Below, in pieces: positions 14,748 to 54,373 of a DNA stretch of 64,000 nucleotides. Numbering within the stretch: position 1 is the stretch's first letter; each line of letters begins with the position of its first letter. A model generated the notes under the pieces. The model had not been told where the DNA came from. It searched no databases and saw only the letters and a program-made list of their open reading frames with translations. The position numbers and the translations under genes were made by a program. This DNA comes from Blautia sp. SC05B48 (GTDB lineage: Bacteria; Bacillota; Clostridia; Lachnospirales; Lachnospiraceae), in contig NZ_CP040518.1 of assembly GCF_005848555.1 (NCBI RefSeq), forward strand, positions 3,115,501 through 3,179,500, in the 5' to 3' direction.

Positions 14748-14769
14748 GTACGTTAGTATTTGAATAACT

Positions 14770-14820
14770 GTGCGTCGCATTCTCGTTACTTCAGTGATGA
14801 GTTAGACGCACTATTTTTTT
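14770..14820 (+). terminator. Intrinsic terminator after the HxlR gene
   Basis: GTGCGTC (14770-14776) pairs with GACGCAC (14805-14811), with inner pairing around TTACTTCAGTGA, and is followed by TATTTTTTT. Confidence 0.6.
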
Positions 14821-14837
14821 GGACGGGGAACAAATGT

Positions 14838-14866
14838 TTGTAAATTCTTCTCGAATATGGTACAAT
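14838..14866 (+). promoter_or_regulatory. Predicted tnpA promoter of the second IS element
   Basis: TTGTAA (14838-14843) and TACAAT (14861-14866) are 17 bp apart. A transcript would begin about at the ATG (14873), and there is no ribosome binding site before it, so a leaderless message is again predicted. Confidence 0.5.
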
Positions 14867-14872
14867 AAAAAC

Positions 14873-15310
14873 ATGGATAAAAATATATTTAATATCAATA
14901 ATAATGAGCTTTCATATGGTAGAGGATATGTGTATTCCCTGCAGTACCATCTTGTATGGTGTACAAAATACCGGAAAAAGGTTTTAAAGGATGGTATTGA
15001 TGCAGAATGCAAGGAAATGCTCTATGACCTTGCAGAAGAATATAAATTTCAGATCCTGGCAATGGAGGTTATGCCGGATCATATCCATCTGCTTGTAGAT
15101 TGCAGACCACAGTTTTATATCTCTGATATGATCAAGACCATGAAGGGGAACATTGCCCGGCAGATGTTTCTTGCGCATCCGGAACTGAAGAAGGAACTTT
15201 GGGGAGGGCATCTGTGGAATCCATCTTATTGTGCAGTAACGGTAAGTGACAGGAGCAGGGAACAGGTATGTTCTTACATCGAAGGGCAAAAAGAAAAAAC
15301 AGAAACCTGA
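14873..15310 (+). CDS. tnpA: IS200/IS605 family Y1 transposase TnpA
   Basis: The 145-residue protein has YSLQYHLVWCTKYRKKVLK, the HUH motif HIHLLV (after VMPD) and the catalytic tyrosine region NPSYCAVTVSD. These features define the IS200/IS605 single-strand transposase. I take the ATG at 14873, directly after the predicted promoter; an in-frame ATG at 14819 lies upstream of that promoter. The gene ends 42 bp before the tnpB start. All key residues are present. Confidence 0.9.
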   Translation: MDKNIFNINNNELSYGRGYVYSLQYHLVWCTKYRKKVLKDGIDAECKEMLYDLAEEYKFQILAMEVMPDHIHLLVDCRPQFYISDMIKTMKGNIARQMFLAHPELKKELWGGHLWNPSYCAVTVSDRSREQVCSYIEGQKEKTET

Positions 15311-15351
15311 AAGAAGCAGTTTTTAAAAATGTAAGCAGAAAGAGGAAAAAG

Positions 15352-16680
15352 ATGAAGACAGTATCCAGTTATGGCGTAGAACTGCGAAAACAGAATATCC
15401 CGATTCGCCAGACACTGGATATCTATCGCTCTGCGGTCAGCTGTCTGATCGAGATCTATGCCCGGACATGGGATGAACTGGCAGTGATCACGGAACCTAA
15501 AAAACGTTTCAATACTGCAGAACATCTGGTGCATACCACAAAAAAGAATCAGGCAAGGTTTGATTTTGACCTGCGATTTCCAAAGATGCCTTCTTATCTC
15601 AGAAGGGCAGCTATCCAGCATGCCCTGGGAAGCGTATCCTCATATAAGACAAGGCTGGAACTGTGGGAAAAAGTGGATCAGAAAGGCAGCACGCCGAAGC
15701 TGGTGTGTGGTAATCATGCTATGCCGGTATTTTACCGTGATGTGATGTACCGTGAAGATACTGAGGAAAAAGATGGAGCGTACCTGAAACTTTATGACGG
15801 CCACGACTGGAAATGGTTCCGTGTCAGTCTCAGCCATACAGATATGGAATATCTGAGGAAATACTGGGCGGGAAAAAGAGCAGCAGCACCCGTGCTGGAA
15901 AAAAGGCATCGTAAATACTTCCTGCGTTTTTCTTATACAGAAGAGGTGCCGCTTACAAAGACACCTGTAAAAGAACAGGTCATCTGCAGTGTGGATTTAG
16001 GGATCAATACGGATGCAGTCTGTACCATCATGCGGCCAGATGGAACTGTCCTGGGAAGAAAATTTATTGATTTTCCCAGTGAAAAAGACCGGATGTACCG
16101 TGTGCTGGGACGGATAAGCAGGTTCCAGCGGGAACATGGTTCTGTACAGGTGAAAAGCAGATGGGCTTACGCGAAGCGTCTTAACACAGAGCTCGGAAGG
16201 AAGATCGCAGGGGCAGTTACAGGATATGCGGAAGAAAACCACGCGGATGTGATCGTGTTTGAGTATCTGGAAACAAAAGGAAAGATATCCGGGAGAAAGA
16301 AACAGAAGCTGCATCTGTGGAGGAAAAGGGATATCCAGAAAAGATGTGAACATCAGGCGCATAGAAGAGGGATGCGGATATCCAGGATTTGTGCGTGGAA
16401 TACCAGCAGGCTTGCCTGTGATGGATCGGGAACAGTTGTCCGTGATCCAGACAATCACAGTTTATGTACATTCCAGAATGGAAAAAGATATAACTGTGAT
16501 CTTTCGGCGTCCTATAATATTGGAGCAAGATATTTTATACGTGAACTCTTAAAACCCCTTCCGGCAACGGAAAGGTCTTTGCTGGAGGCAAAAGTCCCTT
16601 CAGTAAAGCGTAGGATCTCATGTGTATATGCGGACTTAAGAGAACTATTTTTAGAAATGGAACTTTTAAGCGCTGCATAA
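15352..16680 (+). CDS. tnpB: IS605-type TnpB, RNA-guided nuclease with complete RuvC site
   Basis: From the ATG at 15352 (AGAGG upstream) the protein has 442 residues. The RuvC acids are in place: Asp215 in CSVDLGIN, Glu304 in VIVFEYLE and Asp383 in YNCDLSASYNIGARY. A Cys-containing segment (ACDGSGTV, SLCTFQNGKRYNCD) sits where the zinc ribbon is expected, though it is not a perfect CxxC pair. The protein should be a nuclease guided by an RNA from the element's right end. The frame is open 84 bases further 5' but has no better start. It is a useful reference for the degenerate homologue at 28986, with which it shares the CSV..NTD.AVCT stretch. Confidence 0.87.
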   Translation: MKTVSSYGVELRKQNIPIRQTLDIYRSAVSCLIEIYARTWDELAVITEPKKRFNTAEHLVHTTKKNQARFDFDLRFPKMPSYLRRAAIQHALGSVSSYKTRLELWEKVDQKGSTPKLVCGNHAMPVFYRDVMYREDTEEKDGAYLKLYDGHDWKWFRVSLSHTDMEYLRKYWAGKRAAAPVLEKRHRKYFLRFSYTEEVPLTKTPVKEQVICSVDLGINTDAVCTIMRPDGTVLGRKFIDFPSEKDRMYRVLGRISRFQREHGSVQVKSRWAYAKRLNTELGRKIAGAVTGYAEENHADVIVFEYLETKGKISGRKKQKLHLWRKRDIQKRCEHQAHRRGMRISRICAWNTSRLACDGSGTVVRDPDNHSLCTFQNGKRYNCDLSASYNIGARYFIRELLKPLPATERSLLEAKVPSVKRRISCVYADLRELFLEMELLSAA

Positions 16681-16853
16681 ACACAGGCAGATATACAGTG
16701 GATTACCTGCAGTGTGGGAACCTGCCATATCTGGCATGGAAAAAGCGCATGACTGCGCATATCCTAAGCTACAGGCGTATCCGCCGATATTTAGCCTTGT
16801 CGCTTAAAGCGACTGAGGAGCATGTGACTTTAGTCATGTGAGATCCACAAGCT
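16600..16853 (+). ncRNA. Candidate guide RNA scaffold of the second IS605 element
   Basis: The end of tnpB and the following 170 bases fold into several hairpins (around 16725-16770, 16799-16813 and 16821-16840) and contain no gene. By analogy with known TnpB systems this would be the scaffold, with the guide starting just beyond the right end near ATCCACAAGC. The boundaries are not proven. Confidence 0.35.
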
Positions 16854-28424: not shown

Positions 28425-28985
28425 AGAAAAAAATCCTTTTCTGAAATTTAGCAGGCCAAAAGCCAGATCAGGCGGCCTGCGGGTATAGTATAGCATTTGG
28501 GCATGGAAATGTCGATTAGGCATAAAAAAAGAGCTGGTACAAGAGGAAACATCCTTGGACAGCTCGTGGATTATGGGGATTGTGTCGCTTATTATCTTCA
28601 TAAGTCACAGACCTAAAAAGACATATTTCACAGCCATTTTAAAGGATACCATTGATATTTTCCTTTGTCAAGGCGTGCCAAGGTATGCAGCATGCTAATA
28701 ATGTCACTTTTTAAGCGAGATATGCAGCATTTATGTATCAAAAAGTGAATAAATCGTCTGAGAATCATCGAAATCTAACATTAGTGGTCACAAAAAGTGG
28801 TCACTTTTTTCTTACGCAAATCCGCGTAAAATCAATACTTTTCAGGTATTTTTTCTTTTTTCTTTCCAATGATTAGTGGTCAAAATCGTGGTCAGCTGTG
28901 CCAGAAAAGCCAGCATTTAACAGTGTTATAAGTTTTTTTCGCTAATGAAGATATTAAGCGATACCTGACAGCAGAAAGAGATGCC
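28425..28985. other. Long intergenic region with paired TGGTCA repeats
   Basis: No gene is visible. Two similar blocks are seen: TTAGTGGTCA at 28781-28790 with a second GTGGTCA at 28797-28803, and TTAGTGGTCA at 28873-28882 with GTGGTCA at 28888-28894. The first block is followed by a T run. The stretch is AT-rich near 28820-28870 and must hold the promoters of the pseudouridine synthase gene (minus) and of the degenerate tnpB gene (plus). The repeats could be binding sites or an old attachment region. Confidence 0.4.
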
Positions 28986-30167
28986 ATGAAAACAGGATAC
29001 AGTATCAAAACATGGAAAATGCGGCTCTTTTGTCCGGAAAAGCAGATGATCGAAACAACAGAAGCCCTGTATCGGGAAGCCGTAGCCTTTTACTATGAGC
29101 TCCTGAAAGAAAGAGAAGAACTCTGGGCCGAAAATCTGCTGACCATCCAGGGACATCTGGAAAAGCTTACCGTTCCCGGAAGAGACGGAAGAGAACCAAA
29201 GTACATCCCGCCAGGCGGAAAGCTCCCCGTTTACTTTCGGAGATCTGCCATGAACAAAGCTGCAATGGCAGTAAAGACCGCAGCAAGCGCAGAAAGCTTC
29301 CCCGAAAAGATCGATGCCAACATCACCTTTTTCAAGGGAATGTACAGAGACCTGACAGACACCTCCGTAGTGCTGAAGCTCTGGAACGGAAAGAAATGGA
29401 TCTGGGTACCCTGTGGACTTACAGGACGCCCCTTCCCGAAGGAAGCAGCAATCCTGTCACCGACATTGGTCCATGAGGAAAAATGGCTCATGTTCCATGT
29501 ACCTGTCAAGCAGGAAAACTCCGATGCCCGGACAGCAAAGGAACGAATGCAGGAAGGCGCCAGAGTATGCAGCGTCCGCTTTACCAATACGGACAGCTTT
29601 GCAGTATGCACAGTTCTGGATGAAGAATCCAGACAGCTGGCTGTAAAAAACTGCAGAGGCGGAAATGCATACCGACATCATTGCAGAGCTTTGCTGAAAA
29701 AAGTAGAAGCATCCAGGGCATTTACCGATAAAGACAACGTCAGTCAGCCAAACAGGAAATATTACATGCATCTCAAGCACCTGAATGAACATTACGCACA
29801 TCAGGTCAGCAAGGAGATCATGGATTTCTGCAAAGAAAATCAGACCGGGATACTAGTACTGCCGGAGTATGATGAAGATTTTTCCAGGATATCCATGTAC
29901 AGAAGCGGCAATTATTCGCCTCTTCACTTAAGTATCCGCATCCGGAATTATCTGAAATACAAGGCCTGGGCAGAAGGAATCCTGGTACTTGAGCTGCGCG
30001 CCGACGGAACAGAAAAGCAATGTTCCATCTGCGGAGCCACCGGAAAAAAACAAGGCAGTGTATTCATCTGCCAGAACGGCCATCAGGTCAACCGCTTCCT
30101 GAACGGCGCCCGAAACCTGGGCCGCAAATGCCAGGAAAGCTTCCGGAAAAACAACAAATCAAGTTAA
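28986..30167 (+). CDS. Nuclease-dead TnpB homologue (TldR-like candidate)
   Basis: A 393-residue TnpB relative with an intact reading frame. Aligned with the active TnpB at 15352, RuvC-I VDLG is VRFT (Arg198 for Asp). RuvC-II FEYL is LPEYD (Pro293, with a Glu at 294 one place on). RuvC-III CDLSASYNI is RFLNGARNL (Phe371 for Asp). The zinc ribbon is kept: Cys346, Cys349, Cys362 and His366 (CSICG, ICQNGH). No tnpA lies beside it. Loss of the catalytic acids with preservation of the rest is the pattern of TnpB-derived RNA-guided repressors. It sits 232 bp upstream of, and points into, a surface polysaccharide locus. A regulatory role is inferred. Confidence 0.75.
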   Translation: MKTGYSIKTWKMRLFCPEKQMIETTEALYREAVAFYYELLKEREELWAENLLTIQGHLEKLTVPGRDGREPKYIPPGGKLPVYFRRSAMNKAAMAVKTAASAESFPEKIDANITFFKGMYRDLTDTSVVLKLWNGKKWIWVPCGLTGRPFPKEAAILSPTLVHEEKWLMFHVPVKQENSDARTAKERMQEGARVCSVRFTNTDSFAVCTVLDEESRQLAVKNCRGGNAYRHHCRALLKKVEASRAFTDKDNVSQPNRKYYMHLKHLNEHYAHQVSKEIMDFCKENQTGILVLPEYDEDFSRISMYRSGNYSPLHLSIRIRNYLKYKAWAEGILVLELRADGTEKQCSICGATGKKQGSVFICQNGHQVNRFLNGARNLGRKCQESFRKNNKSS

Positions 30168-30346
30168 TAAGCGGCAGAAATGCCTCTTATATATAAATGC
30201 TGAGCAATCAGCAAGAGAGGAAGCGCCAGTGACGCCTCCTTTCCGGTTGAATACCGCCAGGTGGCCCAACGCAGGCGTCGCCAAAGAACTGTGCCTTGTG
30301 GGTGCGGGGTGTATTCGAAGTTATAAGAATGTGAACGTATAGGATT
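30130..30346 (+). ncRNA. Candidate guide RNA region downstream of the dead TnpB
   Basis: Between the dead tnpB stop and the glycosyltransferase gene lie small stems (GGCAGAAATGCC, GCTGAGCAATCAGC at 30200-30213, and paired GCGCC/GGCG stretches to about 30290) and no reading frame. In TnpB and TldR systems the guide RNA scaffold overlaps the 3' end of the gene, with a short guide after it. Here a scaffold could end around GTGAACG (30333-30339), leaving TATAGGATTAATTAA as guide. The position is by analogy; the ends are not known. Confidence 0.3.
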
Positions 30347-30399
30347 AATTAAAAATATTAGTAAGAAGATGCGAGCATCTTCTGTAAGGATGGAAAGTA

Positions 30400-31548
30400 T
30401 TGAGAGAAAAAAAGGTTAAAGAGCCGCTACGGATAGCGATGTTTGGGCATAAGAGAATACCTAGTCGGGAGGGTGGCGTGGAAATTGTTGTCGAAGAACT
30501 GTGTACCCGTCTGGTGAGAGACGGACATACAGTTGTTTGTTACAACAGAGCTGGACATCATGTAAGTGGCGCAGAATATGATGCAAAAATTAAAAACCAA
30601 TATAAGGGGATAAAACTGAAAACAGTTCCCACTATTGAAAAAAAGGGACTGGCAGCAGTTAGTTCTTCTTTTTTTGCGGCTCTATGCTGTGCATTAGGAA
30701 GATACGACGTAGTACATATTCATGCTGAAGGACCAGCATTTTTTGCGTGGTTGCCCAAATTATTTGGGAAAAAAGTTGTAGTGACCATACATGGAATCGA
30801 TTGGCAAAGAGAAAAATGGAAAAATGGATTTGGTTCAAAATTTATCCGTCAGGGAGAACGAAATGCAGTGAAATATGCTGATGAAATAATCGTTCTGAGC
30901 AAAGGTGTTCAGGATTATTTTCAGGAAACATATGGTAGAAAAACACATTTTATTCCTAATGGAGTGAATCGTCCAGCTATTAAAAACGCAGAAATCATTA
31001 CAGAAAAATATGGTCTTACAAAAGATTCATATTTTCTCTTTCTTGGCCGGTTGGTACCTGAGAAGGGGATTCGGTATCTGGTGGAAGCGTTCAAACAGAT
31101 AAAAACAGATAAGAAACTGGTAATCGCTGGAGGCTCTAGTGATACAGATGAATTTGCCTGCAAACTGAAAGAGTTATCTAAAAGTGACAGTAGGATTATC
31201 TTTACTGGATTTGTACAGGGAGAGATATTAGATGAATTATATAGTAATGCATACGTTTATACTCTCCCGTCAGATTTGGAAGGAATGCCGTTAAGTTTGC
31301 TAGAAGCAATGAGCTATGGGAATTGTTGCCTGGTTTCGGACATTCCTGAATGTACGGAAGTGGTGGAAAATAAGGCAGTAATTTTCAAGAAATCGAATGT
31401 GAGTGAATTAGTTCGTAAGCTTCAAGAGAATTGTGATAATTCAAGAAAAGTTCGGGAATTGAAGAAAGTAGCGTCGAATTTTATTTTAAATAAATATAAT
31501 TGGGATGATGTAGTTAAGAAAACAGAAATAATATATGAAAATAAATGA
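30400..31548 (+). CDS. Glycosyltransferase family 4 (DUF1972-type N-terminus)
   Basis: A 382-residue GT-B enzyme with the N-terminal segment IAMFGHKRIPSREGGVEIVVEELCTRLV and the C-terminal donor-binding part FLFLGRLVPEKGIRYLVEAFKQI, SDLEGMPLSLLEAMSYG (the E..G.....EAM.YG motif) and CLVSDIPECTEVV. It starts at a TTG with AAGGATGG nine bases upstream; no better ATG exists near the family N-terminus. It is the first gene of the polysaccharide locus and has less extreme AT content than the genes after it. It probably adds an early sugar to a lipid-linked repeat unit; donor and acceptor are unknown. Confidence 0.87.
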   Translation: MREKKVKEPLRIAMFGHKRIPSREGGVEIVVEELCTRLVRDGHTVVCYNRAGHHVSGAEYDAKIKNQYKGIKLKTVPTIEKKGLAAVSSSFFAALCCALGRYDVVHIHAEGPAFFAWLPKLFGKKVVVTIHGIDWQREKWKNGFGSKFIRQGERNAVKYADEIIVLSKGVQDYFQETYGRKTHFIPNGVNRPAIKNAEIITEKYGLTKDSYFLFLGRLVPEKGIRYLVEAFKQIKTDKKLVIAGGSSDTDEFACKLKELSKSDSRIIFTGFVQGEILDELYSNAYVYTLPSDLEGMPLSLLEAMSYGNCCLVSDIPECTEVVENKAVIFKKSNVSELVRKLQENCDNSRKVRELKKVASNFILNKYNWDDVVKKTEIIYENK

Positions 31549-31587
31549 AAGCGAAATTTAAAATAAAAAGATTGAGGTATTAAAGGA

Positions 31588-32769
31588 ATGTCTAATAATA
31601 GTGAAAAAAAATTAAATGGTACAGTTATTGTTACTTATCGTTGTAATGCACGATGCTCTATGTGTAATCGTTATAAAGCTCCTTCGAAACCGGAGGAAGA
31701 AATCAGTATTGAAACTATTAAGAAATTACCCAAGATGTATTTTACAAATATTACGGGTGGAGAGCCATTTATTCGGAGTGATTTGAAGGATATTGTTCGC
31801 GAATTGTATAAGAAGTCTGATCGCATTGTTATTTCTACAAATGGATTTTTTACAGATCGTATTGTTGATCTTTGTAAAGAGTTTCCTCAGATTGGTATTC
31901 GCATTTCTATTGAAGGATTAGAACAGACCAATAATGAAATTCGTGGTTTGCAGAACGGATATCAGAGAGGCTATAGTACATTAAAAAAACTTCGAGAAAT
32001 GGGTATGAAAGATGTTGGATTTGGTATGACAGTACAAGATAAAAATGCTTCTGATTTGGTTCCGCTATATAAAATATCTGATGAAATGGGAATGGAGTTT
32101 GCAACTGCATCTTTACATAACAGTTTCTATTTTGTAGAAGCTAAAAATATTATTCATAATCGCCCAATGGTTGCAAAAAATTTTGAAAATTTAGTAAATG
32201 AGTTGCTTCGTAGCAATAGCCCTAAAAAATGGTTTAGGGCGTATTTTAACCATGGTTTGATTAATTATATTTATGGCCAAAAACGTTTATTACCTTGTGA
32301 TATGAGTTTTGATACATTTTTCATTGATCCGTATGGTGATGTTATGCCATGCAATGGAACAAAGGATAAAGAAGTTATGGGCAATTTGAATGTTCAGACT
32401 TGGAATGAGTTATGGAATAGCCCAGAAGCTGAGTCTGTTAGAAAAAAAGTTCGCCATTGTGATAGAAATTGCTGGATGATTGGATCTGTTTCCCCAGCGA
32501 TGCACAAATATATTTGGAAACCTGCAATTTGGGTTATCGTTCATAAGTTAAAAGCTCTGTTTTCAAAACATCCATATAGTATGTATGAGAACAAAATTTG
32601 TTGTGAATATCGCGATGGAAGGGTGTCAAAAGAGGAACTGGACAAATGTAGTACATGTGATAACAATTGTGTGGTCAATAATGGTTTGAGTGAAGCATCC
32701 CAGGAGCAGTTAAAACATAAAAGCGGTGAGGAAATAGTAAATGAAGATATTGCCAAACAGTTTAGATAA
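31588..32769 (+). CDS. Radical SAM/SPASM domain protein in the polysaccharide locus
   Basis: The 393-residue protein has the radical SAM cluster Cys19, Cys23, Cys26 (YRCNARCSMC), the ITGGEPF motif and a SPASM-like region with several cysteines (FFIDPYGDVMPCNG, CDRNC, CCEYRDG, CSTCDNNC). SPASM proteins hold extra iron-sulfur clusters and modify peptides, enzymes or sugars. Its place between two glycosyltransferases suggests a radical modification of a sugar or of the lipid carrier, but this is inference. It overlaps the next gene by 29 bases. The coding sequence is strongly AT-rich. Confidence 0.82.
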   Translation: MSNNSEKKLNGTVIVTYRCNARCSMCNRYKAPSKPEEEISIETIKKLPKMYFTNITGGEPFIRSDLKDIVRELYKKSDRIVISTNGFFTDRIVDLCKEFPQIGIRISIEGLEQTNNEIRGLQNGYQRGYSTLKKLREMGMKDVGFGMTVQDKNASDLVPLYKISDEMGMEFATASLHNSFYFVEAKNIIHNRPMVAKNFENLVNELLRSNSPKKWFRAYFNHGLINYIYGQKRLLPCDMSFDTFFIDPYGDVMPCNGTKDKEVMGNLNVQTWNELWNSPEAESVRKKVRHCDRNCWMIGSVSPAMHKYIWKPAIWVIVHKLKALFSKHPYSMYENKICCEYRDGRVSKEELDKCSTCDNNCVVNNGLSEASQEQLKHKSGEEIVNEDIAKQFR

Positions 32770-33712
32770 TAGTGTAGAGAATGTTGCTGTTATAATGTCC
32801 ACATATAATGGAGAGCGATATATTCGGGAACAAATAGAATCTATTCTAAACCAAAAAAAAGTTTCTGTATTATTGTTTATTAGAGATGATGGATCAAAAG
32901 ATAATACAAGAAAAATCATAAAAGAATATTGTACAAATTATAGGAATGTTATATGGATTGATGAGCTTAAAAAAGAGAATTTAGGAGTTAGAGATAGTTT
33001 TTTGCGTTCGCTTACTTTTGTATATAAGAATTATCCGGATATTCATTATTTTTCATTCTCAGATCAAGATGATTACTGGATGGAGGATAAATTATTTGAG
33101 GGCGTATGTAGATTAGAGAAATCAAAAAATACAAAAGGTGCTCTTTATTATACAAATAAAATATTTGTGGATAAAAATCTCAATGAAATAAAAAAAGAAA
33201 ATATTGTCTACTACAATGATTATATGGAAATATTGTGGCCATCATTAGCTTCAGGATGCACCATGATTTTTAATCGTAGCTTAGTATATTTTACATTGAA
33301 AAATTACCCTAAAATAAATTGTATACATGATTCATGGATATATCGACTTGCGAAATGTATAGGCTCAGATATCTATTTTGATGAAAAACCATTAATTTTA
33401 TATCGGCAGCATGATATGAATGTGTGTGGAATGAAAACAACAATTCTTCACCATGATTTACGATATATGTTGAATAATATGTTTAAAAATATTTTTTCTT
33501 CGCGAGAACATATTATTCAAAATTTTGTAAAAGAATTATATCTAGCGAAAGAAGATATGACGTCAGAATCTAAATATTATTCAGAAATAATTATAGATTA
33601 TAACTATAATATAAAACATAAATTTAAACTTATGTTTATCAAAGGATTTTCGAAACGAAAAATAAAAACGCGCATGGTATGGATTTATAAAGTTATATTT
33701 AATATGATTTAA
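32741..33712 (+). CDS. Glycosyltransferase family 2
   Basis: The 323-residue protein has a GT-A N-terminus (VAVIMSTYNGERYIREQIESILNQ, LFIRDDGSKDNT) and the metal-binding region SFSDQDDYWMEDKL, the DQDDxW signature of rhamnosyltransferase-like GT2 enzymes. GCTMIFNRSL and HDSWIYRLA are further family segments. The ATG lies inside the end of the radical SAM gene with GGTGAGGA eight bases before it. It probably extends the repeat unit on the cytoplasmic face; the donor is not known. Confidence 0.87.
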   Translation: MKILPNSLDNSVENVAVIMSTYNGERYIREQIESILNQKKVSVLLFIRDDGSKDNTRKIIKEYCTNYRNVIWIDELKKENLGVRDSFLRSLTFVYKNYPDIHYFSFSDQDDYWMEDKLFEGVCRLEKSKNTKGALYYTNKIFVDKNLNEIKKENIVYYNDYMEILWPSLASGCTMIFNRSLVYFTLKNYPKINCIHDSWIYRLAKCIGSDIYFDEKPLILYRQHDMNVCGMKTTILHHDLRYMLNNMFKNIFSSREHIIQNFVKELYLAKEDMTSESKYYSEIIIDYNYNIKHKFKLMFIKGFSKRKIKTRMVWIYKVIFNMI

Positions 33713-33731
33713 TAGAAAAGAGGAATGTTTG

Positions 33732-34583
33732 ATGAAACAGAAAAATAATTTTCAAATACAAGAAATTTTTAATGAAGATTTGAAAATATTACAGTCATGT
33801 GAATTAGAAAATTTTAAACTTTTTAAAAAAATATGTGATGACAATAATCTTAGATATTATATGATAGGGGGAACATTAATCGGTGTAGTTAGACATAATG
33901 GTTTTATACCATGGGATGACGATATTGATATTGGTTTGCCAAGACCGGATTACAATAAATTTTTGGAAATTGCACCTAAGTATCTACCTGAATATATGGA
34001 GATTGTAACAAAATCTTCAGATCCTAATTTCAAATGTTATTTTACAAGAATGATTAATAACAAAAAGAAAATATATTGGGATCAGGGAGGGTACAAAGCA
34101 AAAATAGGTGTTTGGATGGATGTTTTTCCTATAGATGGCTTGCCAGATAATAGAATTTTAAGAAAACTACAAGTTTTTAAAGTGCTTTGGTGGAAAATGC
34201 TATATAAGTTTACACAAATTGATTATGTAATGACCAACCGTGAACGAAGCAAAATGGAATGGTTAATAATTAAGTTTGCACAAATTACTCATATTGGAAA
34301 AATACTTTCGGCTGAAAAAACATTAGATAAATTAGATAAACAACTTCAGAAATATGACTTTGATAAGGTGAATTATGCATGGAATTTTTCAGGTGGACAT
34401 GGTTTAAAAGAAATAATGCCGAAACGCTTATGGGATGGAAAACGAACAGGACTATTTGAAGGACTTAAAGTATCAATTCCGGAAAATACAGAGGAACATC
34501 TTTCATATATTTTTGGGGATTATATGACTCTTCCTCCGGAAAATGAGAGGGTAACTCATTCAATTCAATTTGTCGAGGATTAA
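33732..34583 (+). CDS. LicD family phosphotransferase
   Basis: This 283-residue protein carries the LicD signature YYMIGGTLIGVVRHNGFIPWDDDIDIGLPRPDY, a nucleotidyltransferase-like fold with the WDDDID metal site. LicD enzymes move a phospho-alcohol (such as phosphocholine or a polyol phosphate) from a CDP-linked donor onto a surface glycan. The cytidylyltransferase encoded next door would supply a CDP donor, which supports the call. I start it at the ATG at 33732 with AGAGGA upstream, not at the TTG three bases before. Confidence 0.9.
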   Translation: MKQKNNFQIQEIFNEDLKILQSCELENFKLFKKICDDNNLRYYMIGGTLIGVVRHNGFIPWDDDIDIGLPRPDYNKFLEIAPKYLPEYMEIVTKSSDPNFKCYFTRMINNKKKIYWDQGGYKAKIGVWMDVFPIDGLPDNRILRKLQVFKVLWWKMLYKFTQIDYVMTNRERSKMEWLIIKFAQITHIGKILSAEKTLDKLDKQLQKYDFDKVNYAWNFSGGHGLKEIMPKRLWDGKRTGLFEGLKVSIPENTEEHLSYIFGDYMTLPPENERVTHSIQFVED

Positions 34584-34607
34584 AAAAGTAATTCGAGGAG
34601 AAATAAA

Positions 34608-35333
34608 ATGAATATTGGAGTGATTTTTGCAGGTGGAGTAGGAAGCCGTATGCATAGTAAAGATCGACCGAAACAATTTCTTGATATTTATAATAAGCCA
34701 ATAATAGTTCACACAATTGAACATTTTCAGAATAGTGAAGATATAGATTCAATAGTTGTTGTTTGCATTGAAGGATGGATCGATTATATGAATCAACTTG
34801 TTTATCAATATAGATTAAATAAGGTGAAGAAAATTGTTCCAGGCGGAAAAACAGGACAACTATCTATTTATAATGGATTGATTGCTGCACAAGAAATTGC
34901 AAGAGATGAAGAGAATATTGTGCTTATTCACGATGGTGTAAGACCGTTGATCAATGAGGAATTGATAAAAAGAAATATTCAAGATGTTAAAGATTATGGA
35001 AGCTCAATTACAAGTGGGATAGTAAAAGAAACTATTGTTGAAATATATGATAACAACGATATAAAATTAGTTCCGGATCGTGCACACTCTCGAGTAGCAA
35101 AAGCTCCTCAGTGTTTTTGGCTGAAAGATATACTAAGCGCACATAAAAAGGCAATGAATGAACAAAGTTTTAATTTTATTGATTCATGTAGTATGATGAA
35201 ATATTATGGATATAAACTCCATATGACAGATGGACCATATGAAAACATAAAAATTACTACGCCCGATGACTTTTATATGATGAGAGCAGTTTTGCAAGCT
35301 AAAGAAGATGCTCAGTTATATACACCTTATTAA
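34608..35333 (+). CDS. IspD/TarI-family cytidylyltransferase
   Basis: A 241-residue nucleotidyltransferase with IFAGGVGSRMHSKDRPKQFLDIYNKPIIVHTIEHFQ, the G.GxR......PKQF motif of IspD and TarI, and VLIHDGVRPLI. In a glycan locus such enzymes make a CDP-polyol (for example CDP-ribitol) rather than the isoprenoid precursor made by IspD. With LicD upstream and an NAD-dependent epimerase/reductase in the same locus, synthesis and transfer of a CDP-activated alcohol is the natural reading. The exact substrate cannot be deduced. Confidence 0.85.
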   Translation: MNIGVIFAGGVGSRMHSKDRPKQFLDIYNKPIIVHTIEHFQNSEDIDSIVVVCIEGWIDYMNQLVYQYRLNKVKKIVPGGKTGQLSIYNGLIAAQEIARDEENIVLIHDGVRPLINEELIKRNIQDVKDYGSSITSGIVKETIVEIYDNNDIKLVPDRAHSRVAKAPQCFWLKDILSAHKKAMNEQSFNFIDSCSMMKYYGYKLHMTDGPYENIKITTPDDFYMMRAVLQAKEDAQLYTPY

Positions 35334-35367
35334 AACGGTGATTAATTCAAAATAAGGAGTTGAAACG

Positions 35368-36738
35368 ATGCTTTATTTATTGCTTTTATTTCTGATATTA
35401 TTAATGTTATTGACGTTAATGATATTAGATAAAGATATATTTTCTCCATCATTTATAGTTTGTGCTGTTTTTTTTCTGAGCACGCTAGGATGTATTGTTA
35501 ACGCTAGGTACTGGAAAACTGAAATAAGTATGGCAACAATATTAGTAATTGTTGGTGGATGTCTGGTTTTTTCTGTTATAGGTATAGTATGTAATAGTTG
35601 TTGTAAAAACATTTATGGGAAAAGAAATGCAAATGAAATATTTGAATTAAAACTAATAAAAGTTGATAATTGGAAAATCGTATTGATTTTATTAGTAAAT
35701 TTAGTATTGATTTATTTACAGATAAAATTTGTAAATAATGTCATTGCAATGGCTTCTTCGAAATCCCTTTTATCGTGGGGAATGAAGATGGAATACTATA
35801 GAAATATAGTAAGTTATGACTCCTCAAATCTTCATATAGTTATTCCTTCTTATATAAATATTTTAAATAAAGCATCTATGATTCTTTCTTATATATTTGT
35901 ATATATATGTGTTAATAATTTTTTAGTAAAAAAAGACTTTAAACTAATAAAAAGGTTTAATGTTATGGAAATGTTGCCAGTTATAGCGTACATATTATTT
36001 AACTTAGTATGCTCATCCAGGGGAGCTATTCTTCAAATATTTATAGCAACTATGGTCATGTATCATTTACTTTACCATAAACAAAATGGATGGAATAAAC
36101 ACTATAATATAAAAGCTTTAGTCAAAATAGTAGTAATTGCAACAGTTTTACTTATCATATTTGTGGAATTGAGAGATATTGTTGGAAGAAATTACTCAGA
36201 AACAGCCAAAAGTCCATTGTATTATATATGTTGCTATATTGGAGGGTCTATCCATTTATTAGATGATTTTATTAAAAAACCTATAGATGGATCTCAAATA
36301 TGGGGAAAAGAAACATTTTATTCTATTATTCGATTCATTGGACAAAGATTTAATATTAAAGATTGGATATATATTTCGCATCTTGAATTTAGATATTCGA
36401 ATGGCCTGAATGTTGGAAATATATATACAGCTTTTAGAAAGTATATTTATGATTTTGGGTACTTTGGTGTGATTTGGTGTACTGCGCTTGTTTCATTTAT
36501 ATATAATCAAATATATTACACCATAAAATATAGTAAAAAAAGAAGTGTATTGTATGATATTTCTATTATATTTTTTGGATATATTGCTTATGGATATTTT
36601 TATATGTCAATACAGGAGCAACCACTATCTGCCATTCTTTGTACAACTACTATTATTATGCCTATATTATTTATGTTGGTTGTTTATTGTTTGAAATTAA
36701 AAGTTAGATTTTTAAAAATTAGATTTTGTAGGAGATGA
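35368..36738 (+). CDS. Oligosaccharide repeat-unit polymerase (Wzy-like)
   Basis: A 456-residue, very hydrophobic protein with about a dozen membrane helices and a larger loop in the second half (IVGRNYSETAKSPLYYICCYIGGSIHLLDDFI). This general architecture, together with its place beside a flippase, fits the O-antigen/capsule polymerase family, whose members share little sequence. It would join repeat units on the outer face of the membrane. The gene is extremely AT-rich. The call rests on topology and context. Confidence 0.78.
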   Translation: MLYLLLLFLILLMLLTLMILDKDIFSPSFIVCAVFFLSTLGCIVNARYWKTEISMATILVIVGGCLVFSVIGIVCNSCCKNIYGKRNANEIFELKLIKVDNWKIVLILLVNLVLIYLQIKFVNNVIAMASSKSLLSWGMKMEYYRNIVSYDSSNLHIVIPSYINILNKASMILSYIFVYICVNNFLVKKDFKLIKRFNVMEMLPVIAYILFNLVCSSRGAILQIFIATMVMYHLLYHKQNGWNKHYNIKALVKIVVIATVLLIIFVELRDIVGRNYSETAKSPLYYICCYIGGSIHLLDDFIKKPIDGSQIWGKETFYSIIRFIGQRFNIKDWIYISHLEFRYSNGLNVGNIYTAFRKYIYDFGYFGVIWCTALVSFIYNQIYYTIKYSKKRSVLYDISIIFFGYIAYGYFYMSIQEQPLSAILCTTTIIMPILFMLVVYCLKLKVRFLKIRFCRR

Positions 36739-36743
36739 AAAAA

Positions 36744-38144
36744 ATGAAAAAAGGATTAGCACAAGTCCTTTTTGCAAATATTATTTTTTTACTTGTTGGA
36801 ATTGTAAGTAATTTTTTATTACCTAAATATTTATCTATAGAATCGTATTCGTATATAAAAACGTATGCTTTATATATTTCTTATGCCGGTTTTTTCCATT
36901 TAGGATACAATGATGGAATGTACTTAAAATATGGTGGAAAAAAAATAGAAAATATATCAAAAAAGGATTTAAGTACAAATTTTTTGAATTATATTTTTGT
37001 ACTATTGATTGCATCAATTGGTTTAGTAATATTTGGTGGAATAAGAAAGAGTTTCATAATGTATGCTTTTGCGGTTGGAGTATTTGCTACAAATTTCATA
37101 GGATATTTTAAAAGTTTCGCCCAGGCAACTGGGGAGTATAATTTATATGGAAAAGCATTAAATTATGAAAAAATTCTAGTCTTGATATTTGATCTTTTGC
37201 TCATTTTTCTGTGTAATACAGATAATTATAAACTCTATTTAAGCGTTCAAGTTTTGGCAAGTATAATTATAGCTGTCATTTTATGTTATGGAGTCAGTAG
37301 AAAAACTGGGATATTAAAAGGTGGAAAATTCTCTATTTCGGAAATAATAATTAATATCAGGCAAGGATTTATTTTGATGTTAGGGAATTTTTCAAGTTCT
37401 ATATTTACAGGAATGGATCGTTGGTTTGTAAAAATATTGATGAATTCATTTTATTTTGCACAATATTCATTTGCGGTAAGTGTTGAACAGATTATCAATG
37501 TCTTTATTACACCAATTACTGTATCCATGTATAACTATTTTTGTAGAGAAACGAATATAGATAATATCAAAAAAATCAAAAAATTTGTATTAATTTGGGG
37601 TTGTTTGATTATTGGAGGCGCATTTCCATTAAAGTTCATTATTGAATGGATTTTACCCAAATATAAAGAAAGTTCAGGATTAATATTTATTTTATTTGCG
37701 GCACATGCATTTTATACCGTTATAAAGGGTATTTATGTCAATTATTATAAATCAAAATTATTACAAAAAATATATTTTTGGCAATTAAGTGGAATGACAG
37801 TAGTTGCTTTTGTGACGAATTGCATAGCATATTATTTGCTTAAATCTATGTATTCATTTGCTTTTGCAACTTTATTAACAGCACTGTTGTGGTATATTGT
37901 ATGTGAAATTTTAACTAAAGAATTACGAGCGGATATTAGAGAAAATATTGCATTTGCTTTAATGGTATCCATGTATTTGGTATGTGGATTAAAAATGAGT
38001 GCAATTATAGGATGTATTTGTTATGTAATTGCATTTGGTCTTATTTTGATTTTTTTAATGAGAGATACATTAATGGAGATTATAAAAGAAATTAAAATGA
38101 TATGTAATAAATTACTTAAAAAAAAGGAAAATGGATATGAATGA
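36744..38144 (+). CDS. Polysaccharide repeat-unit flippase (Wzx-like)
   Basis: The protein has 466 residues and roughly 12-14 hydrophobic helices starting GLAQVLFANIIFLLVGIVSNFLLPKYLS, the beginning typical of polysaccharide transport proteins in the MOP superfamily. I use the ATG at 36744 because AGGAGATG is seven bases before it; the ATG at 36735 overlaps the polymerase stop and has no spacing for a ribosome. It would flip lipid-linked repeat units across the membrane. It overlaps the epimerase gene by eight bases. Confidence 0.82.
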   Translation: MKKGLAQVLFANIIFLLVGIVSNFLLPKYLSIESYSYIKTYALYISYAGFFHLGYNDGMYLKYGGKKIENISKKDLSTNFLNYIFVLLIASIGLVIFGGIRKSFIMYAFAVGVFATNFIGYFKSFAQATGEYNLYGKALNYEKILVLIFDLLLIFLCNTDNYKLYLSVQVLASIIIAVILCYGVSRKTGILKGGKFSISEIIINIRQGFILMLGNFSSSIFTGMDRWFVKILMNSFYFAQYSFAVSVEQIINVFITPITVSMYNYFCRETNIDNIKKIKKFVLIWGCLIIGGAFPLKFIIEWILPKYKESSGLIFILFAAHAFYTVIKGIYVNYYKSKLLQKIYFWQLSGMTVVAFVTNCIAYYLLKSMYSFAFATLLTALLWYIVCEILTKELRADIRENIAFALMVSMYLVCGLKMSAIIGCICYVIAFGLILIFLMRDTLMEIIKEIKMICNKLLKKKENGYE

Positions 38145-39111
38145 TTTAAAAGAAAAGACAATATTAATAACAGGTGCAACGGGGCTTATTGGACAAGCAG
38201 TAATAAAAGAACTTTTAAAAACAAATAATCATATAAAAATTATTGCTTTGGTAAGAAATAAGGAAAAAGCATATCAAATATTAGGAAAAGAAACAGAAAA
38301 TCTTGAATTTTATTTTGGAAATGTTGAAACAATTACTCCTCAAAAAATGAATGTTGATTATATCATTCATGCTGCTAGTCAAACATCAAGTAAATTATTT
38401 GTTGCAAATCCAGTTGAAACATCTTTGACAGCGCTTATTGGAACAAAAAATATGCTTGATATTGCAAGACTTAGCTCTGTTGAGGGATTTGTATATCTAT
38501 CAAGTATGGAGGTATACGGAGCACCAACAACTGATGACAAAATATTTGAAAATTACAATACAAATATAGATACAATGAAAGTTCGCTCATGTTATCCTGA
38601 AAGCAAAAGAATGTGTGAAAATTTATGTGTATCTTATGCATCAGAATATAATGTGCCAGCAAAGGTAATTAGGCTTACGCAAACTTTTGGACCCGGTGTA
38701 AGATATGATGATGGAAGAGTTTTTGCTGAATTTGCAAGATGCGTTATAGAGAAAAAAGATATTATTCTTAATACTAAAGGTGAAACTAAGCGGAGCTATT
38801 TGTATACAGAAGATGCAGCAAAAGCTATTTTGACTATTTTGAAAGAGGGAATTGCTGGCGAGGCATATAATGTGGCAAATGAAGATACGTATTGTTCTAT
38901 TTATGAAATGGCACTGTTAGTTGCTCAAAAATGTGCGCATAACAATATTTCAGTAAGAATTAAAGAAAATATGAATGAAAATTTGGGATATGCGCCAGTT
39001 CTCCATATGAATCTGGATACGTCAAAAATCAGGAAACTCGGATGGAAGCCTTTATATGGCCTTGAAGAAATGTTCAAAAAAATGATTGATTCGATGAAAA
39101 CATTGATTTAA
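38137..39111 (+). CDS. NAD-dependent epimerase/dehydratase family protein
   Basis: A 324-residue short-chain dehydrogenase-type protein with the Rossmann motif TILITGATGLIGQAVIKELL, VDYIIHAASQTS, and the catalytic region YLSSMEVYGAP followed by SCYPESKRMCE (the YxxxK pair). It belongs to the extended SDR sugar-nucleotide epimerases. With the IspD-like enzyme it may make or modify a nucleotide-activated sugar or polyol. I choose the ATG at 38137, nine bases after AAAAAGGA, rather than that at 38131. Confidence 0.85.
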   Translation: MNDLKEKTILITGATGLIGQAVIKELLKTNNHIKIIALVRNKEKAYQILGKETENLEFYFGNVETITPQKMNVDYIIHAASQTSSKLFVANPVETSLTALIGTKNMLDIARLSSVEGFVYLSSMEVYGAPTTDDKIFENYNTNIDTMKVRSCYPESKRMCENLCVSYASEYNVPAKVIRLTQTFGPGVRYDDGRVFAEFARCVIEKKDIILNTKGETKRSYLYTEDAAKAILTILKEGIAGEAYNVANEDTYCSIYEMALLVAQKCAHNNISVRIKENMNENLGYAPVLHMNLDTSKIRKLGWKPLYGLEEMFKKMIDSMKTLI

Positions 39112-39131
39112 GATGCAGGGAAAAATAATAA

Positions 39132-40130
39132 ATGAACAAAAAGGCAAGAATTATTGAATTAGATTATTTAAAAGGAATAGGAATTTTTTTAGTGGTATTA
39201 GGACACACTATTTTACTTCAGAATGCGTTATCTACAAAGTATGTAATTTTGGCTAGATTTATTTATTCTTTTCATATGCCACTTTTTTTCATAGCAAGTG
39301 GTATTATTTCTGGTTTACAAAGAAATTTACAATGTAATATAGTCAAAACAGCTAAAAAACTTCTGATTCCTTATTTTTTCTGGAGCTTTGTATATATAAT
39401 TTTGTTTGCAATACAAAACAAGGTTTCATTATTGGAAAGAGTATATGCAACAATAACATGTCGTGGAATTGCACCACTTTGGTTTCTTGCAACACTGTTT
39501 GTAACTAAGATCTTTCTTTCTGAATATGAAAAAAGAATAGAAAACTTCATTACTTCAAAAGTAAAGAGACAAATATTATTGATTCTTATTTGCTTGGTAT
39601 TAGCATTAGCTTTAAAAGTGCTTGTAAAAAATATACAAAGCCCGATTATATGCTATCCAATAATATCAGTTGCCAGAGTGTTTCTAGCTACAATATTTGA
39701 GTCAATGGGATATTTAATAGGACTAAATTGGAAAAGTATATGTCAGTATAAAAAAGCCTTTTTTATGATATCAGGGTTATGTTTTTTTATAGTGCAAAGC
39801 ATAACACAAAATACTGTTAATATGCATACATATACTTTTGATTCTTTAGTAATTTTTATTATTACTGGTTTAACGGGGACATTATTTTTATTAGAAACTT
39901 GTTTAATGCTACCAAGAAACATTAAAGTTTTAAGTGAAATTGGAAAATCTTCTATGGATATTATGATTTTGCATTATCCACCTATGCCAATTTTGAAGGT
40001 ATGTATAATAGTCGGTACATTATTGAAAAATGATGTAGCAATTGTCCTGATTACTATAATGGCGCTTTTTATTACATTCGAAATTCATAAATTATTCTTG
40101 GAACCTATACGAAAAAGATATTTATTATGA
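39132..40130 (+). CDS. Acyltransferase family 3 membrane protein
   Basis: This 332-residue protein begins RIIELDYLKGIGIFLVVLGHTILL, with the D..K.....VV.GH pattern of the acyltransferase 3 (OafA/NodX) family, followed by about ten membrane helices (FIYSFHMPLFFIASGI is a second family segment). Such enzymes O-acetylate surface polysaccharides. It is the last gene of the AT-rich locus. A terminator-like hairpin is found about 320 bp downstream. Confidence 0.87.
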   Translation: MNKKARIIELDYLKGIGIFLVVLGHTILLQNALSTKYVILARFIYSFHMPLFFIASGIISGLQRNLQCNIVKTAKKLLIPYFFWSFVYIILFAIQNKVSLLERVYATITCRGIAPLWFLATLFVTKIFLSEYEKRIENFITSKVKRQILLILICLVLALALKVLVKNIQSPIICYPIISVARVFLATIFESMGYLIGLNWKSICQYKKAFFMISGLCFFIVQSITQNTVNMHTYTFDSLVIFIITGLTGTLFLLETCLMLPRNIKVLSEIGKSSMDIMILHYPPMPILKVCIIVGTLLKNDVAIVLITIMALFITFEIHKLFLEPIRKRYLL

Positions 40131-42241: not shown

Positions 42242-43831
42242 ATGGGAAGATTTGTGAACCCGGACAACAGTGCATTTCAGGTTGCCCTTAACTCCAGAAT
42301 ATATGTGGATAAGACTGGCCTGATCGAGTACACAAACAGTGTTCTTGATACAACAAATGCCTATATCTGCAATAGTCGGCCGCGTCGGTTCGGAAAATCT
42401 TATGCGGCTAATATGTTGGCTGCGTATTATAGTAAAGGCGCAGATTCTGAGCAGATGTTTTCTGGATTGCAGATAAGCAGGGCGGCCGACTTTAAAAAGC
42501 ATCTTAACAAGTATGATGTGATCCATATCGATATTCAGTGGTTTCTGGCAAACTGTGATGATGCGGATAATATAGTGAAGCATGTCACGGAGGCGGTTCT
42601 GGATGAATTGCGGGAAGTTTATCCGGATGTTCTGCCACTTGAAGTATCTGGCTTGCCGGATGCACTTTCAAGAATCAAAGATAAGGTGGGACAGAAGTTT
42701 ATCGTCATCATTGATGAATGGGACGTACTGATTCGTGATGAGGCGGCCAATAAAAAAGCACAGGAAGATTATATAAATTTCCTGCGAGGAATGTTCAAAG
42801 GAATAGAACCTACAAAGTATATTCAACTGGCGTACCTTACAGGTATTCTTCCCATAAAGAAGGAAAAAACACAGTCAGCTCTGAATAACTTTGATGAGTT
42901 TTCTATGCTGAGCCCAGGCAGTCTCGCACCGTATGTCGGTTTTACTGAGAATGAAGTGCAGAAACTGGCAGAAGAATATCATCAGGATTTTGATGAGGTA
43001 AAGCGTTGGTATGATGGATATCTGCTGAATGGTCATCAGGTTTATAATCCTCGAGCAGTTGTTGGCGTGATGCTTCGGGGAGAATTCAAGAGCTATTGGT
43101 CAGAAACAGCTTCTTATGATGCCATTGTTCCGCTGATCAACATGAATTATGGCGGCTTGAAAACAGCTATTATTGAAATGATCTCTGGCGCAGAGGTTAA
43201 AGTAAACACAGCAACCTTTAAGAACGATACGGTAAGCATCAAAAGTAAGGATGATGTGTTAACATACATGATTCACCTGGGTTATTTTGGATATAACCCC
43301 AAATTAAAGACTGCCTTTGTGCCGAATGAAGAGATTCGACAAGAACTTACAGCTGCTGTTGAAAGTAAGCAGTGGAATGAGATGCTGGAATTCCAGAAAA
43401 ATTCGGAACATTTACTTGATGCTACGTTGGACATGGATGGAGTAGAAGTTGCTGCACAGATTGAAAAAATCCACAACGAGTATGCGTCTTCCATTCAATA
43501 TAACAATGAGAATTCACTGAGCAGTGTTTTGGCAATTGCATATTTAAGTGCAATGCAGTACTATTTTAAACCTGTCCGGGAACTGCCGACAGGCCGTGGA
43601 TTTGCTGATTTTGTGTTTATCCCAAAGATAGAGTACTGTTCATCTTATCCGGCGTTGATCGTAGAGCTGAAGTGGAATCAAAATGCCCAGACTGCCGTGA
43701 TGCAGATTAAAGATAAAAAATATCCTTCTTCAATTCTGGATTACACAGGTGAAATCCTGCTTGTTGGGATCAACTATGATAAAACCAGTAAGGAACATCA
43801 ATGTTTGATCGAAAAATATGAAAAAGAGTGA
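42242..43831 (+). CDS. AAA-ATPase-like / PD-(D/E)XK nuclease superfamily protein
   Basis: A 529-residue protein of a family common in gut anaerobes. The N-terminus (FVNPDNSAFQVALNSRIYVDKTGLIEYTN, then CNSRPRRFGKSYAANMLAAYYSKG) has the RPRRFGKS form of the Walker A loop, and KFIVIIDEWDVLIRD is the Walker B region. The C-terminal part (GRGFADFVFIPK then PALIVELKWNQNAQTAVMQIKDKKY) matches the PD-(D/E)XK nuclease pattern D...ELK. Members often occur in many copies and have been suggested to be mobile or linked to defence; function is unknown. Confidence 0.85.
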   Translation: MGRFVNPDNSAFQVALNSRIYVDKTGLIEYTNSVLDTTNAYICNSRPRRFGKSYAANMLAAYYSKGADSEQMFSGLQISRAADFKKHLNKYDVIHIDIQWFLANCDDADNIVKHVTEAVLDELREVYPDVLPLEVSGLPDALSRIKDKVGQKFIVIIDEWDVLIRDEAANKKAQEDYINFLRGMFKGIEPTKYIQLAYLTGILPIKKEKTQSALNNFDEFSMLSPGSLAPYVGFTENEVQKLAEEYHQDFDEVKRWYDGYLLNGHQVYNPRAVVGVMLRGEFKSYWSETASYDAIVPLINMNYGGLKTAIIEMISGAEVKVNTATFKNDTVSIKSKDDVLTYMIHLGYFGYNPKLKTAFVPNEEIRQELTAAVESKQWNEMLEFQKNSEHLLDATLDMDGVEVAAQIEKIHNEYASSIQYNNENSLSSVLAIAYLSAMQYYFKPVRELPTGRGFADFVFIPKIEYCSSYPALIVELKWNQNAQTAVMQIKDKKYPSSILDYTGEILLVGINYDKTSKEHQCLIEKYEKE

Positions 43832-46626: not shown

Positions 46627-46732
46627 CAGGCCCCCCGGTCCGGATGGAATCTTTAAAGAGCAGGAAAAAATTTGATAAAAATAACAGACAGGTTTTATCC
46701 TGTTTGGAAAATATAGCTAGGAGGAAAGAAAT

Positions 46733-47434: not shown

Positions 47435-47437
47435 ATT

Positions 47438-48196: not shown

Positions 48197-48199
48197 AAT

Positions 48200-54346: not shown

Positions 54347-54373
54347 CAATAAATACAGACAGGAGAATGACCA

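Follow-up and report, generated by a model that had tools for sequence, protein, structure and literature searches.

A nuclease-dead TnpB homologue with an RNA partner and an invertible promoter at the head of surface-glycan operons in Blautia and relatives: a candidate RNA-guided silencer of competing loci

Stretches of bacterial DNA that once served transposons may come to serve their hosts, and a candidate case is considered here in Blautia sp. SC05B48. The window, a stretch of 64,000 nucleotides (C1:3115501-3179500, C1 being contig NZ_CP040518.1 of a 3.73-Mb genome; bare positions below are window coordinates), carries on its plus strand an intact open reading frame (ORF) for a TnpB homologue of 393 residues (28986..30167). 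Its RuvC acids are replaced by Arg198, Pro293 and Phe371, and its zinc ribbon is kept. This gene, called dead tnpB below, is accompanied by a structured RNA, a surface-glycan operon and an upstream invertible segment (inverton). Comparison with related loci suggests that together they may form a phase-variable regulator of surface polysaccharides.

A nuclease-dead TnpB beside glycan genes

An earlier sequence-only reading of the window had described the gene as an intact TnpB homologue with its zinc ribbon preserved, and both statements held. The C-terminus is a Cas12f1-like_TNB zinc-ribbon domain (Pfam, 43.4 bits; cut-off 26.3), with Cys346, Cys349, Cys362 and His366 all present. The guided_TnpB model of NCBIfam gives 52.9 bits, under its cut-off of 100. 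The AlphaFold2 model (predicted local distance difference test score 91.6) aligns full-length with the Cas12f1/TnpB fold over residues 5-390, and the best profile match to solved Cas12f/TnpB sequences has an expectation (E) value of 2.7e-16. PADLOC reported similarity of Cas12f/Cas12u type, plus a weak Csx1 match.

Active sister TnpBs have D, E and D in the three RuvC columns; none of these acids is kept in any readable member of the dead clade (0/67, 0/67 and 0/65), so the expectation that close homologues would share the loss was borne out. The earlier reading named the residues correctly but took the third acid as displaced to Glu294. That candidate was rejected: position 294 is Glu or Asp in only 14 of 67 members, and position 293 is Pro in 63, Ala in three and Thr in one. 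Because Pro293 stands where Glu belongs and 294 is rarely acidic, the third acid is lost as well. The ratio of nonsynonymous to synonymous substitution (dN/dS) in the dead clade is 0.06-0.17 (a value was obtained for 15 of 16 pairs), and since the loss is common to the whole clade at such values, it goes beyond chance. Nuclease loss is firmly family-wide, and the fold, of the kind that binds guide RNA and target DNA, is retained.

The comparison draws on 71 loci from one scan of a species-level genome collection, two of which (L103 and L105) are active sisters. Hosts include Blautia, Coprococcus comes, metagenome-assembled genomes (MAGs) of Lachnospiraceae, Eubacterium callanderi, an Acetivibrio MAG and Anaerotruncus colihominis, among others, and the clade has diverged down to about 30% identity. 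The nearest named homologue (99% identity) is in B. massiliensis GD8; two paralogues in the same genome are 44 and 45% identical (C1:544916-546103 and C1:3657845-3659029, both on the minus strand). Within the genus Blautia, 25 of 64 genomes match, 15 of them strongly to the dead clade and the remainder to other TnpBs, as read from the table. None of 47 candidate stretches in viral contigs is a relative. A tblastn search of 66 loci with a single query, the window's own TnpA, found no tnpA homologue, in line with the earlier statement that none is present; IS200/IS605 elements may also lack tnpA.

Next on the same strand lies a surface-glycan operon (30400..40130, +), made up mostly of glycan genes, again as the sequence-only reading had it. 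It encodes GT4 and GT2 glycosyltransferases, a radical SAM/SPASM protein, LicD, an IspD-like cytidylyltransferase, an epimerase, an acyltransferase and two membrane proteins; seven of the nine genes, the radical SAM/SPASM gene included, have Pfam matches, and the two membrane proteins, polymerase or flippase by appearance, have none. The proposal that homologues share such neighbours was examined with mechanically chosen ORFs at 62 sampled loci, four of them without a downstream gene. The first two downstream genes (112 proteins, 100 on the same strand as dead tnpB) are mainly of sugar-nucleotide, sugar-transfer and polysaccharide families: epimerases (21), Polysacc_synt_2 (17), GT2 (13), bacterial sugar transferases (12). 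Upstream, the two nearest genes (109 proteins) show no such pattern and spread across 141 families, phage-integrase-type (tyrosine) recombinases (13) being the exception. Dead TnpB is linked to surface-glycan operons.

As a separate observation, a NusG-like gene, LoaP- or UpxY-looking by eye, lies downstream of dead TnpB in three loci (for example, L062 12161-12724); both kinds of regulator may therefore share one operon.

The window also holds an intact-looking IS200/IS605-type element (14765-16848) with a TnpA-like ORF (14819-15310) and a TnpB-like ORF (15268-16680) that has D/E/D, no Cys ribbon and no Pfam match, and that the tree places as sister of the dead clade. The element follows TTGA(A), and match coordinates place a paralogous empty site at C1:1543238-1543654.

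A structured RNA partner

A candidate guide-RNA scaffold (right-end-element RNA, reRNA) starts 46 nucleotides past the dead tnpB stop (30214..30324, +). It consists of a hairpin followed by a three-way junction closed by GAATAC/GTATTC, ends in AAGTTAT and matches the covariance model at 91.7 bits. Compensatory changes occur in 25 of 26 pairs among 34 relatives of 104-168 nucleotides, and 89.9% of the cells are paired, against 65.0% in shuffles (none of 500 reaches it) and at most 51% with the partners slid. The dead TnpB has a covarying structured RNA partner, usually 3' of the gene, and TnpB guide-RNA scaffolds share its place and general build. The tail of the RNA, AAGTTATAAGAATGTG (30318..30333, +), opens with a family-typical seed candidate of seven nucleotides and continues into locus-specific sequence, a putative guide.

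The model has at least three matches in the genome, each adjoining a dead tnpB (150 of 375 first-look candidates were scored). It matches 25 of 35 sources, mostly deep members outside the model, the weakest at E 0.02; one second match, in L065, is at chance level. Rfam gave no family at gathering score in the window and none up to E 5 for 30100-30420.

At three loci of Bacterium 1XD42-1 (L079, L081, L092) the RNA lies 5' of dead tnpB, its tail overlapping the ribosome-binding region of the gene.

An invertible promoter upstream

Two recombinase-type core sites bound the inverton (28583..28963), which was called from the family scan, with the window pair itself recognized by eye and through the orthologue L035. 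The left site (28583..28609, +) reads TGTCGCTTAT-TATCTTC-ATAAGTCACA, and its L035 counterpart belongs to a pair of score 17; the right site (28938..28963, -) is inverted, matches at 20 of 26 positions and has the spacer GAAGATA, the reverse complement of the left one. Between them lies a sigma-70-type promoter, TTGACA-17-TATCCT with TG (28643..28671, -), facing away from dead tnpB. Promoter-like sites in 28500-30600 number 2 versus 2.8 in shuffles, so this call rests on the family pattern, in which the segment usually holds such a site (for example, TTGACA-17-TATCAT).

Across the family, inverted site pairs occur upstream of dead tnpB in 48 of 65 regions and in none of the control regions further upstream (0/53) or downstream (0/55). 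In many loci each of the inverted sites is in turn dyadic around a short centre, as core sites of tyrosine recombinases are. The 17 regions scoring below 17 include several deep members and the window, where the scan found no pair (score 0) because the arms differ too much for its 10-nucleotide seed. Some related loci have the segment the other way round: the C1:544 kb locus is 91.5% identical to L044 over 1446 bp, inverted, as are L051 and L064, both from B. schinkii DSM 10518, at 97.0% over 371 bp. The promoter is therefore invertible, and an inverton upstream of dead tnpB is firmly established. In this assembly the direction of the promoter suggests the OFF state for the window locus and for C1:3657 kb, and the ON state for C1:544 kb.

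Several side observations concern the same segment. Two AGTGGTCA repeats form a terminator-like hairpin at 28783-28805, inside the segment and facing dead tnpB; repeats of this type also stand 5' of several relatives and might serve as arm sites for a recombinase. At L041, L043, L044, L046, L050, L053 and C1:544 kb the invertible segment is longer, about 1.4-1.5 kb, and encloses an ORF, in most apparently a tyrosine recombinase.

RNA tails and GAT-AAGTTAT boxes

The 57 located RNA tails begin with AAGTTAT in 40 cases, AAGATAT in three, AAGTAAT in three and GAG in 11. The 46 tails whose letters were counted had been picked for starting AAG, so agreement at positions 1-3 means nothing. The same heptamer recurs in DNA near dead tnpB, preceded by GAT (in the longer written form of the box, GAT-AAGTTATAAATATAAA). 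In 66 loci GATAAGTTA occurs 19 times in sense and five times in antisense orientation: 11 of the sense sites lie in the tnpB leader (10 non-coding, one that scored as coding), six, all non-coding, lie in the gap that separates tnpB from the first glycan gene, and two lie elsewhere; all five antisense sites are coding. When GAT was not presupposed and RNA tails were excluded, it preceded AAGTTAT at 14 of 22 non-coding sense sites and 0 of 8 antisense sites in those two zones, and at 1 of 168 sites outside them. GAT may be read as a putative target-adjacent motif and AAGTTAT as a putative seed; tail and box agree over 7-12 nucleotides with the GAT motif alongside, and a ribonucleoprotein (RNP) of dead TnpB and its RNA likely recognizes such boxes.

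Genome-wide, GATAAGTTAT has nine sites and its reversed control one. Two are the leaders of the paralogue dead-tnpB loci, and three directly precede genes of the phosphoglucomutase family (C1:224078), the VanZ family (C1:226563) and Polysacc_synt_2 (C1:239225) in one glycan region; the remaining four are in other places, two or more of them within ORFs. In genome G048 a box stands directly 5' of a GT4 gene resembling the first glycan gene of the window. In the 15 Blautia genomes with a strong dead-TnpB match there are 27 sites versus 9 in the control, and in the 49 without one 18 versus 14 (hand sum). The box as a general Lachnospiraceae element was rejected on 62 sites versus 45 for the reversed control in 397 genomes, counted by eye.

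Variant boxes as a feature of deep clades were a rejected candidate. The leader of L086 carries GAT-GAGTTGT in a clade whose tail is GAGTTGT, the one exact leader match; L078 and L089 have near matches by eye, and nothing clear appears in Eubacterium callanderi, 1XD42-1 or Anaerotruncus. Genome-wide in three genomes, the variant box has two sites, both in one genome (the L086 leader and one intragenic by coordinate estimate), and its reversed control two. A guide of 20 nucleotides with a target in the same locus was a rejected candidate, no convincing match having been found.

Own tail and own box were compared at 47 loci with a tail starting AAG, with a box consensus derived from the boxes themselves. 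A box is present in 22 and absent in 25, the window among the latter (L052 was counted as box-less, the pattern having missed a box-like site in its leader); in 16 of the 47 it lies just upstream of tnpB. The own tail matches the own box over at most seven nucleotides in 21 of the 22 box-bearing loci, and tails of box-less loci match the consensus over at least eight in 20 of 25 loci (P about 1e-7 by Fisher test, or 1e-4 with both groups set against the consensus). The break falls in the tail in L076, L085 and L088 (AAGATAT) and, as a G, T or C in the eighth position, in other loci; in L062 and L066 it falls in the box (AAGTAA). In the Acetivibrio genome that carries L076, L085 and L088, the five loci without a box have the tail AAGTTATTA. 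On our reading of the tree, gain (or loss) of the box has happened six times or more. Self-sparing of this kind, if real, would speak for a repressive binding aimed at other loci.

A proposed mechanism

We propose that a domesticated, nuclease-dead TnpB is a phase-variable, RNA-guided silencer, acting in trans on competing glycan loci in the manner of TldRs (TnpB-like nuclease-dead repressors), and give this a probability of about one half (0.52). When the inverton flips ON, dead TnpB and its RNA would be made together with the glycan operon. The protein would hold the RNA, which has AAGTTAT at the start of its 3' tail, and the RNP would bind GAT|AAGTTAT(A...) boxes within other glycan operons or in their leaders, blocking RNA polymerase at the box as TldRs do. 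One surface glycan would then be expressed and its rivals held down, the UpxZ logic of Bacteroides with an RNA as the guide. Candidate targets in this genome are a second glycan locus at C1:224-239 kb, which has three boxes, and the leader of each sister dead-TnpB locus, two in all. The sequence-only reading had suggested a TldR-like glycan regulator. Lost acids, glycan neighbours, RNA, inverton and box support that suggestion; for its core, DNA targeting and repression, we infer a role from comparison, and repression of rival loci rather than action on the own operon is the less sure part.

More tentatively, the system may amount to a widespread Clostridial RNA-guided glycan exclusion, with a shared seed, the GAT motif, boxes in rival operons, and a mismatch kept between own tail and own box by which the ON locus escapes its own silencing. 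The seed would be AAGTTAT in most loci, with covarying variants in some clades; one common seed would allow all-against-all mutual silencing without the learning of new guides.

A number of observations weigh against the proposal. Beyond seven nucleotides the match of tail to box is modest (9.1 versus 8.5+-0.3 for composition-matched random tails) and hardly above AT-rich chance, no convincing site for a 20-mer tail turned up within its own locus, and no long guide-target match was found. Avoidance of the own box is weak against shuffled pairing within box loci (P = 0.04; own544 was left out as a near duplicate of L044, and 18 box-less tails were used, five Acetivibrio tails, L052 and one duplicate being excluded). 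Tails were located by motifs and by a model built from AAGTTAT-type RNAs, which biases the tally toward that tail. Ten of 35 sources have no RNA-model match (L067, L068, L070, L073, L074, L082, L087, L096, L097, L099), among them three E. callanderi loci, and some of these show tail-like motifs by eye; at L079, L081 and L092 the RNA sits in the 5' leader. Box presence tracks the tree, with one large clade. With boxes at dead-tnpB loci set aside, the genus tally falls to a small excess, 16 sites in the 15 genomes with the gene versus 18 in the 49 without (reversed controls 9 and 14; hand sum). Boxes also precede glycan genes, named by eye, in G007 and G017, Blautia genomes without detected dead TnpB, and the box may therefore have another reader. 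Finally, the window's own leader has no box, which would fit a locus that acts as a silencer of others and is not itself a target.

If the proposal is true, RNA-guided transcription control extends from flagella to surface polysaccharides, which are seen by phages, the immune system and other microbes, and gut Firmicutes have, in an exapted transposon nuclease, their own version of the capsule switch of Bacteroides. How Blautia and its relatives choose one of several glycan loci becomes directly testable, and a shared seed predicts targets from sequence.

Alternative explanations

Antitermination in cis is unlikely, if the best placed of the alternatives. Dead TnpB would bind its own leader RNA and help polymerase through the long glycan operon as UpxY and LoaP do, the box being unrelated. 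The position of dead tnpB at the operon head suits this, as does the located RNA, always on the sense strand before glycan genes, even 5' of tnpB in L079, L081 and L092; glycan operons do use antiterminators (LoaP; UpxY, PMC7315117). However, a simple scan found no terminator-like site on the plus strand in 30167-30400, no NusG-type family is among the Pfam and NCBIfam matches of dead TnpB up to E 1, and neither GAT-AAGTTAT at other glycan loci nor the early mismatch of own tail and own box is accounted for.

The tnpB-RNA cassette might instead have inserted beside GAT|AAGTTATAAA sites in IS200/IS605 style, leaving tail-box identity as a relic of insertion while the protein has since taken up another role, for instance as a helper of the recombinase. 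In IS200/IS605 elements the guide is identical to the sequence that flanks the insertion, the sister element of the window sits after TTGA(A), and the G048 box directly precedes a GT4 gene like the one that opens the window's glycan operon. However, AAGTTAT kept in 40 of 57 located tails, in a clade diverged to about 30% identity, is hardly what a relic would show, and in L086 the tail and leader box have changed together; this origin seems to us improbable.

Autoregulation, with the RNP binding its own leader box and tuning its own locus alone, would explain the leader boxes just upstream of tnpB, but it sits poorly with the 25 of 47 loci that lack an own box, with the mismatch by position 8 in 21 of 22 own boxes and with boxes at stand-alone glycan genes; we hold it to be improbable too.

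A decaying transposase gene without function is rejected as scarcely credible: stops inside the match occur in five of 71 loci (L055, L072, L096, L102, L104); neither retained acids nor scattered, frameshifted copies, the outcomes named earlier as refuting a regulator, are the rule, and dN/dS, the compensated RNA and conserved synteny contradict it.

Relation to known systems

TldRs are reportedly TnpB-like nuclease-dead repressors described in 2024 by Wiegand. The dead TnpB shares with them, as PMC13418256 describes them, TnpB descent, lost RuvC acids, an adjacent structured RNA and, without a transposase, stable coupling to a surface-antigen gene set. In the same text a 6-nucleotide guide is reported to be enough for repression, and csrA-linked TldR loci have an invertase gene and promoter inversion upstream. 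Other TldR clades are linked to fliC and oppF. By described features, the differences are that dead TnpB is coupled to glycan operons and TldR to flagellin, that an AAGTTAT tail is common to many loci here and tyrosine-recombinase-type inverton sites to most, and that the RNA here can be 5' of the gene, with no long guide match found. Mutual silencing through a shared seed, if true, would be unlike the TldRs described in PMC13418256.

UpxY and UpxZ are, to our knowledge, neither TnpB-fold proteins nor users of guide RNA. They stand at the head of Bacteroides capsule operons, some behind invertible promoters, and UpxZ represses non-adjacent capsule loci through UpxY (PMC7315117); operon head, invertible promoter and the proposed repression of other loci are the points of likeness. 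Unlike UpxY and LoaP, dead TnpB aligns over its whole chain with Cas12f/TnpB. By analogy, then, it would work like TldR in biochemistry and like UpxZ in logic.

TnpB and Cas12f nucleases share its fold, TNB zinc ribbon and profile match; TnpB of IS200/IS605 differs in its D-E-D triad, absent in all readable members of the dead clade, and in the adjoining TnpA that one query did not find here. PDB 9n9c and 9n9m, which we take to be the dCas12f of an RNA-guided transcription system, mark a further difference, no sigma-factor family being among the 25 commonest families of the upstream or downstream neighbour set. A literature search found no report linking TnpB to glycan loci; Wiegand 2024 and Altae-Tran 2023, outside that search, could mention one.

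Other features of the window

Five of the 109 upstream proteins are AAA-ATPase_like/PDDEXK_9 proteins (for example, L052 5489-7249), and a similar-looking ORF lies in the window at 42242-43831. A separate, unrelated TnpB-like ORF of 418 residues occupies 4270-5526. Downstream of the glycan locus, a run of genes that are cobalamin-biosynthesis-like by appearance extends over 45409-56931.

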